NCBI GenBank assembly: GCA_036924085.1
Contig: JAVGWX010000019.1
Coordinates: 12,824,196 to 12,888,195, forward strand
Origin: Ariolimax columbianus
Taxonomy: Eukaryota; Mollusca; Gastropoda; Stylommatophora; Arionidae
DNA: 64,000 nucleotides
Direction of reading: 5' to 3'
The notes under the pieces are model-generated. The model searched no databases. It saw nothing but the letters and a program-made list of their open reading frames with translations, and was not told the origin of the DNA. Every line of letters starts with the position of its first letter. The stretch's first letter is position 1. Of this stretch, positions 49,941-51,284 are shown in pieces. The position numbers and the translations under genes are program-made.

Positions 49941-50137
49941 TATAAGGTGTGTTCAAAATGTGCCCTACCTTAATTTTTCCCCCAGAAAAAATTAAGCATC
50001 GGTGTTGTTTTCGGCAGGGAGGTATAGGGAACATGCGCATGTGTGAATTTTTGGGGAATGCGAAGAATCAGCTGTACTCCCTTCCCCAAAAGGCCTTCAT
50101 AAAATGCTTCCAACAATGGTGAGACTGCTGGGAGAAT

Positions 50138-50296
50138 CGATTAATCACTGGACAACCGCCAATGTGTTTGTCAGGCAAAAATAGCTTTTGTCAAACTAAT
50201 TTCCACGTACTGACCAGGAAAATGGACTCAAATCGCAAATTAGATCTAGTTTTCAGTGTAAAGGAGAGAGGTAGAGAGGTAGAGAGGGAGAGAGGT
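50138..50296 (+). repeat. Right arm of 159-bp perfect inverted repeat
   Basis: Inverse of 43774-43932. It sits inside the mariner, breaking the transposase C-terminal codons just after TGGGAGAA and ending where the 22-bp array begins. Confidence 0.9.
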
Positions 50297-51190
50297 GTGT
50301 CGAGTTCCAAGGAGAAGTGTGTGGAGTTCCAAGGAGAAGTGTGTGGAGTCCCAAGGAGAAGTGTGTGGAGTCCCAAGGAGAAGTGTGTGGAGTCCCAAGG
50401 AGAAGTGTGTGGAGTTCCAAGGAGAAGTGTGTGAAGTCCCAAGGAGAAGTGTGTAGAGTCCCACGGACCGCTGGGAGAAGTGTGTGGAGTCCCAAGGAGA
50501 AGTGTGTGGAGTCCCACGGACCGCTGGGAGAAGTATGTGGAGGCCCAAGGAGAAGTGTGTGGAGTCCCAAGGAGAAGTGTGTGGAGTCCCAAGGAGAAGT
50601 GTGTGGAGTCCCAAGGAGAAGTGTGTGGAGTCCCAAGGAGAAGTGTGTGGAGTCCCAAGGAGAAGTGTGTGGAGTCCCAAGGAGAAGTGTGTGGAGTCCC
50701 AAGGAGAAGTGTGTGGAGTCCCAAGGAGAAGTGTGTGGAGTCCCAAGGAGAAGTGTGTGGAGTCCCAAGGAGAAGTGGGTGGAGTCCCAAGGAGAAGTGT
50801 GTGGAGTCCCAAGGAGAAGTGTGTGGAGTCCCAAGGTGAAGTGTGTGGAGTCCCAAGGAGAAGTGTGTGGAGTCCCACGGAGAAGTGTGTGGAGTCCCAA
50901 GGAGAAGTGTGTGGAGTCCCAAGGAGAAGTGTGTGGAGTCCCACGGAGAAGTGTGTGGAGTTCCAAGGAGAAGTGTGTGGAGTCCCAAGGAGAAGTGTGT
51001 GGAGTCCCACGGAGAAGTGTGTGGAGTCCCAAGGAGAAGTGTGTGGAGTCCCAAGGAGAAGTGTGTGGAGTCCCACGGAGAAGTGTGTGGAGTCCCAAGG
51101 AGAAGTGTGTGGAGTCCCAAGGAGAAGTGTGTGGAGTCCCAAGGAGAAGTGTGTGGAGTCCCAAGGAGAAGTATGTGGAGTCCCAAGGCA
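50297..51190. repeat. 22-bp minisatellite derived from mariner transposase codons
   Basis: About 40 copies of AAGGAGAAGTGTGTGGAGTC plus CC. In one frame a unit reads K-E-K-C-V-E-S-Q-G-E, the mariner C-terminal motif CVESQGxYF. Three longer variants near 50460-50540 contain GACCGCTGGGAGAAGTGTGT, i.e. DRWEKC, the codons that precede the motif. The rightmost unit runs directly into the genuine transposase end. Frames are open in all directions because 3 x 22 = 66 without stops. Confidence 0.9.
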
Positions 51191-51284
51191 AGTACTTTAA
51201 ACGGATTTGGGATTTAAACCTGCAGGTTATTAACTGTATTTTCCGGCTCAAAGGTCAGTCATGTTATGAACACACCTCGTATAT

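Follow-up and report, generated by a model that had tools for sequence, protein, structure and literature searches.

Many tandem repeats keep no surviving trace of their start, and the question raised by the present locus is whether a minisatellite can be followed back to the sequence from which it grew. At 49943-51279 of the 64-kb stretch of DNA analysed here (the window), mariner-type terminal inverted repeats (TIRs), imperfect and TA-flanked, bound an element that holds a tandem array of a 22-bp unit. An earlier reading, made from the letters alone (the sequence-only reading), had proposed that a coding fragment of the mariner transposase was turned into this array in place. The coordinates of the features are collected in Table 1.

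Ends and class of the element

The TA flanks named in the sequence-only reading are present on both sides of the element. Its TIR arms (49945-49971 and 51251-51277; 27 nt, 78% complementary) were the sole inverted pair of at least 12 nt reported in 49900-51330, and their local alignment score of 25 was matched by 0 of 2000 shuffles, the best of which scored 24. For comparison we used Rpmar1, a 'drosophila' subfamily mariner of Rhodnius, with the TIR start CGAGGTGTGTTCAAAA as printed in the available part of the source (PMC4678618). Against this published TIR, the right arm agreed at 15 of the 16 terminal bases and at 21/29 over 29 nt, and the left arm at 14/16 and 19/29, respectively (PMC4678618, same part). 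The left TIR starts with TA and the right end has CG, and these two bases account for both left-Rpmar1 mismatches within the first 16; TA for CG is the change that CpG decay would give. As the arms match both each other and Rpmar1, they are not the unrelated sequences that the sequence-only reading had allowed for. Its description of them as intact-looking holds in that they are recognisable and of mariner type, but they are not intact, left and right being identical at 21/29 positions.

A tblastn search of 49943-51279 with a Mos1 query, 99% identical to P0001, detected no catalytic part and no DDD catalytic domain; the sole match in the element, to residues 283-344 at E = 0.73, comes from the DRWEKCV of the array. 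Because tblastn found no catalytic domain, the element is a mariner derivative and not an autonomous mariner, and because no other transposase matches lie inside it, an internal deletion appears to have occurred. Subtraction of 38 units, two 9-bp additions and the 159-bp piece described below leaves about 320 bp, that is, a short, TIR-bounded sequence without a transposase gene, of the MITE or non-autonomous class. The placement of the array inside a mariner element was thus borne out by the TA, the TIRs and the C-terminal codons, with the restriction that the element is a relic of that length and not a full mariner. A Pfam scan of four pieces of the element returned no mariner family, and three pieces gave nothing; piece 1 gave SepRS_C (E = 0.00023) and HTH_23 (E = 0.019), both unrelated and below the cut-offs, which we took as chance matches in repetitive sequence.

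The array and the transposase C terminus

Tandem Repeats Finder (TRF) reported 22 bp x 41.0 at 50290-51188 (score 1398), and our parse resolved the array into 39 full units and one broken unit at the left edge, in agreement with the earlier estimate of about 40. The units are nearly uniform: 25 of the 39 are identical to the modal unit, the differences come to 16 in 858 positions, and the mean pairwise identity is 96.5%. At 22 bp x 40 and about 0.9 kb, the array is a minisatellite by the usual measure (units of ~10-60 bp, total length under a few kb). Variant A21C recurs each third unit (50858, 50924, 50990, 51056), and differences between the 29 units from 50550 on were lowest at lags 3 and 6 (0.35 and 0.43; the remaining lags from 1 to 8 gave 0.54-0.67); from the recurrence at 66 bp together with the low values at these two lags, a three-unit block was probably multiplied within the array.

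Table 1. Positions of features in the window, with the basis of each assignment
Feature	Position	Strand	Basis
TA target-site copy, left	49941..49942	.	sequence read; mirrored by right TA
Left terminal inverted repeat	49943..49971	+	inverted-repeat search, Rpmar1 comparison
5' region of relic	49972..50053	+	assigned by position; Mos1 tblastn without match here
Left remnant, GNAKNQLYSLPQKAFIKCFQQW*DCWE	50054..50136	+	translation, comparison with long units
159-bp inserted piece splitting first array unit	50138..50296	+	exact inverted copy of 43774-43932; no target duplication seen
Broken first unit (40th), right part GTGTCGAGTTCCAAG	50297..50311	+	parse of array's left edge
39 full 22-bp units, modal GAGAAGTGTGTGGAGTCCCAAG	50312..51187	+	TRF and array parse; two are followed by 9 extra bases
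First 31-bp unit junction, DRW codons kept before EKC	50466..50479	+	array parse, flank comparison
Second 31-bp unit junction, DRW codons kept, then EKYVEAQG	50519..50532	+	array parse, flank comparison
66-bp higher-order pattern	50858..51077	+	variant A21C each third unit
Right remnant: last unit into KYF codons, then 3' sequence	51188..51250	+	translation, Mos1 alignment
Right terminal inverted repeat	51251..51279	-	inverted-repeat search, Rpmar1 comparison
TA target-site copy, right	51280..51281	.	sequence read
Apparent donor of 159-bp piece	43774..43932	-	one match edge inside longer 8/16-bp microsatellite, 43732-43805

In one frame the modal units read EKCVESQG. The sequence-only statement that the array reads CVESQG was correct to this extent, but a 22-bp unit does not divide evenly into codons, so that a single frame gives CVESQG in every third unit only. 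Likewise, the "few" units said to keep DRWEKC proved to be two, with DRWEK kept at 50466 and 50519, and the last unit does continue into KYF, but its true reading is EKYVESQGKYF (EKYVESQGKYFK), one residue off the CVESQGKYF given before. Long ORFs run across the array on both strands (331, 298 and 332 aa on the minus strand; 336 and 238 aa on the plus strand). We rejected these as genes and regard them as mechanical: the frame shifts from each unit to the next, and none of the six frames of the modal unit contains a stop; no gene function is expected of the array, and a transposon relic turned minisatellite is the best reading of it. Six units of the plus strand folded better than shuffles (z -3.26, 0/200 as good), whereas six units of the minus strand did not (z -0.44, 64/200 as good), so single-strand folding was rejected as a proven motor of expansion; that folding of the plus strand could favour slippage is suggestive only.

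The codons of the unit correspond to those at the C-terminal end of mariner transposases. For the protein comparisons we used a composite peptide, DRWEKCVESQGKYFK, in which the 50466 long unit is joined to right-flank sequence. In a search of PDB with this composite, Mos1 chains were the top four of six matches; they end ERWEKCVASDGKYFE, which aligned with DRWEKCVESQGKYFK at E = 0.12, the query being short. A search with Mos1 gave 2462 hits, and the 120 listed matches served for the motif count. The motif [RKQ]WxKCxxxxGxY[FV] was found in 97 of these 120 listed mariner transposases, once in each and 1-2 residues from the C terminus; none carried it twice, and 23 were without the motif as written. 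When a 14-residue window was compared with the composite DRWEKCVESQGKYF, up to 11/14 positions were identical in the listed proteins, while the maximum for 200 shuffles against the first 40 of the 120 proteins was 7. The narrower form RWxKCxxxxGxYF is present in the composite peptide, the real last unit reading as given above. Since 97 of the 120 carry the motif once and none twice, the array occupies the place of the single copy in relatives, and a segment that is single-copy in the listed relatives is about 40-fold here. Intact relatives lacking these codons at that position, the finding that the sequence-only reading had named as fatal to it, were not what the comparison yielded.

Wider searches for relatives gave no confirmed match, and neither an intact parent element nor a close relative of this element came to light in them. 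A protein search with the array's right end returned 32 candidates, none at E <= 10, and a search with a C-terminal bait gave no candidate with three shared words. Among viral and prokaryote contigs there were 0 matches to the exact unit and 0 to a degenerate C-terminal pattern; an alignment of 9 of the 120 proteins (A1) picked out 83 pattern-matching stretches, and the joined-flank peptide 63 and 1, of which none was confirmed. A literature search for the C-terminal peptide gave 0 matches.

The left flank, the 159-bp insertion and the proposed history

The sequence-only reading had taken the left flank as plain element. This proved mistaken: inside the first unit the flank hides a 159-bp inverted copy of sequence 6.2 kb away, identical to its apparent donor at 159/159 positions, and no other pair reached 100% when the window was compared with itself (at least 500 bp apart, E <= 1e-10, low-complexity filter on). 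The insertion interrupts the first unit, with GAGAA on one side and TGTGTCGAG on the other; roughly one base was lost, added or shared where the pieces join. Both copies contain a GA-rich microsatellite; at 43 kb it extends further, whereas in the element it ends. Templated insertions at double-strand breaks are described, in the part of PMC11724301 available, as mostly about 50-300 bp in yeast and humans; the likeness lies in a short piece copied into a break, and the difference is that here the event is known from its scar alone. Judged by its sequence, the 159-bp piece is probably a templated repair of a break, and its full identity to the donor makes it look like the youngest event at the locus. 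The array would be older than the insertion, because its units and the two DRW junctions carry GAGAAG unbroken and only unit 1 is split.

With the 159-bp piece set aside, sequence resembling the DRWEK units directly precedes the array. The last 14 bases of the left remnant (50123-50136, GACTGCTGGGAGAA) agree with GACCGCTGGGAGAA of the two long units at 13/14 positions, and the next best place for this comparison in the whole window, on either strand, reached 10/14. The one difference is CGC in the array's DRW and TGC in the flank; because the array keeps CGC and the change is of CpG type, this suggests that the array was copied before the flank decayed. Further upstream, the 21 pre-stop codons of the left remnant were compared with Mos1-type C termini (97 motif proteins), and 211/2000 shuffles scored as well, so that the resemblance is not significant; we consider their mariner identity likely but not established by this comparison. 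Protein, contig and literature searches yielded no relative with the C-terminal sequence of this remnant. A mariner subgroup may end ...CFxxW..RWxKC; this pattern occurred in 0 of the 120 listed proteins.

We propose the following history. A mariner with Mos1-like C-terminal codons and Rpmar1-like ends would have inserted at a TA, and an internal deletion would have reduced it to about 320 bp, leaving TIR, 5' stretch, last transposase codons, 3' stretch and TIR. A slip between GG dinucleotides 22 bp apart (TGGG/AGAAG and CAAGG/CAAG) may then have duplicated, in part, the E-K-C-V-E-S-Q-G codons, and a second slip, 9 bp further upstream, would have produced the 31-bp units. Unequal exchange or more slippage could account both for growth to 40 units and for the homogeneity of the array, a 66-bp trimer having been multiplied at one stage. 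Afterwards the first unit would have been broken and then patched by the 159 bp copied inverted from 6.2 kb away. We consider this sequence of events as a whole (mariner insertion, internal deletion, microhomology duplication, expansion with homogenisation, then repair insertion) probable; that the compared peptide is a composite and that Pfam returned no mariner family lower our confidence slightly. The single-copy motif in relatives, the continuation into KYF and the DRWEK-like left flank give the claim of conversion in place, and of its direction, better support than it had before, and from them we infer both. Unit identity of 96.5% set beside 21/29 identity of the TIR arms indicates that the array is young, or has been homogenised, relative to the decay of the element, a comparison that is rough in that it rests on an assumed starting similarity of the two TIRs.

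Had the element instead taken up a minisatellite that already existed, the model put forward for miDNA4, a MITE of Xenopus, the likeness of the unit to transposase codons would be accidental. The window is minisatellite-dense, arrays with a period of at least 10 bp covering 20.6% of it in 32 runs, and capture is, in the part of PMC12628747 available, a published model for a Tc1/mariner MITE. However, the unit stands at the position of the relatives' single motif and runs into KYF, the DRW of two units matches the left flank at 13/14, and the 64-kb window holds no other exact occurrence of a 14-mer taken from the unit, all of which make capture highly improbable. The TIRs and TA flanks surround the whole array, as they would if the array had been present before the last transposition and the locus were one copy of a mobile, array-bearing family. 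This we judge unlikely, given that no second copy of the element lies within the window and that a homogeneous array between TIRs of 21/29 identity suggests later growth.

Growth in place followed by a templated patch also has to be weighed against errors of assembly and against another origin of the 159-bp pair. Microsatellites and tandem arrays are difficult to assemble, and an exact 159-bp identity next to one of each raises the suspicion that the array length or the inverted match is an artefact; the array variants are nevertheless ordered (the 66-bp pattern, the two 31-bp units) and the sequences on either side of the 159 bp are not the same at the two sites, and we think an artefact very unlikely. 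Some retroposon tails are GA-rich and microsatellite-like, and one end of the 159-bp piece is of this kind, as if the pair were a dispersed repeat that ends in a microsatellite and had inserted twice, and not a donor with its templated copy. We find this rather improbable: no target duplication is seen at 50138/50296, the microsatellite runs past the match at 43 kb, and the other listed dispersed pairs are 67-98% identical. The pair at 43774-43932 and 50138-50296 would mark either a templated insertion of recent date or a repeat that is very young.

It is conceivable, if doubtful, that one dead mariner copy here records a series of break-repair accidents (deletion, amplification at a 2-bp microhomology, inverted patch) and that, were these the result of repeated transposase cuts at the TIRs and faulty gap repair, the transposon would generate its own satellite, copies of the array being movable by related transposases as mobile minisatellites. 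A patch identical to its donor at every position, inside TIRs that had already diverged, argues against a transposase-driven origin of the patch.

Known systems and the surrounding window

Mos1 is a mariner of the mauritiana subfamily. The present element resembles it in the C terminus (ERWEKCVASDGKYFE against the composite DRWEKCVESQGKYFK) and in the TA target, and resembles Rpmar1 in the TIR start and the TA target; it differs from both in that here the catalytic domain is undetected and a single segment of the C terminus occurs some 40 times over. Closer in form is miDNA4, a Tc1/mariner MITE of Xenopus with an internal satellite, where an array likewise lies inside a small mariner-type element and microhomology is invoked (PMC12628747, PMC9659126, as far as these texts were available); the model put forward there is that an ancestral MITE took up a repeat that already existed (PMC12628747), whereas here the unit resembles coding sequence of the element itself. 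Xstir, bivalve MITE satellites and other TE-derived satellites share with the present case the passage of internal transposon segments into tandem arrays, and "central parts of DNA transposons" are named as a general source of satellites (PMC12628747), but transposase codons are not named as the source in the available parts of PMC9659126, PMC6947457, PMC12628747 and PMC2872659. Satellites derived from ORFs are described, in the part of PMC9659126 available, for HinfI of chicken (CR1 ORF2), PROsat (LINE-1 ORF2) and a rye satellite with a GAG fragment; they too hold a coding part of a TE inside a tandem repeat, but they derive from retrotransposons, whereas here the codons are those of a DNA transposase and both flanks are kept. 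No case of an array grown in place from DNA-transposase codons was found in the literature covered, which took in few subscription papers. Transposon-born tandem arrays, including those from parts of retrotransposon ORFs, are thus already known, and within the limits of this search the use of DNA-transposase codons is apparently new.

The value of the locus lies mainly in its legible history. The conserved codons of relatives show what the single-copy state was, both flanks survive at the locus itself, and the places where duplication began can be suggested with a precision of 2 bp. A single locus could therefore serve to test how minisatellites arise, whether by slippage at microhomology, by unequal exchange or with homogenisation afterwards.

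The window is eukaryotic and probably animal nuclear DNA, to judge from its eukaryotic rRNA pieces and a neurotransmitter-gated channel domain. Several of its minisatellites have higher-order periods, for example that at 14052-16424 (36 and 81 bp). The minus strand at 12536-12655 carries the decayed remains of a mariner-like C terminus, QHFSTDDEFKQAVLDWFRHTDKSFYSEAFQALLKQ*DKCI, which match Mos1 weakly (E = 0.19) and directly adjoin a 58-bp x 7.8 tandem array at 12657-13110. We rejected this pair as a second case: 12350-13350 contained no inverted repeat pair, the best TIR-like score was 20 against a shuffle mean of 22.3, and the 58-bp unit was not mariner by eye. A dispersed repeat is present at 11164-11504, 46847-47141 and 49132-49483; its copies share 71-82% identity in pairs, and one of them stops some 460 bp short of the mariner relic. 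A partial eukaryotic SSU rRNA (19481-20599; model 4-1116 of 1831) is followed by the last ~400 positions of LSU rRNA (21115-21517; 3005-3399 of 3401), the middle being missing at the Rfam gathering score; an ORF that carries an endonuclease-reverse transcriptase domain follows these rDNA pieces after about 1 kb. Finally, an ORF at 60113-60904 on the minus strand has a neurotransmitter-gated ion-channel transmembrane domain (PF02932, E = 6.9e-16) and is perhaps an exon of a divergent receptor gene.
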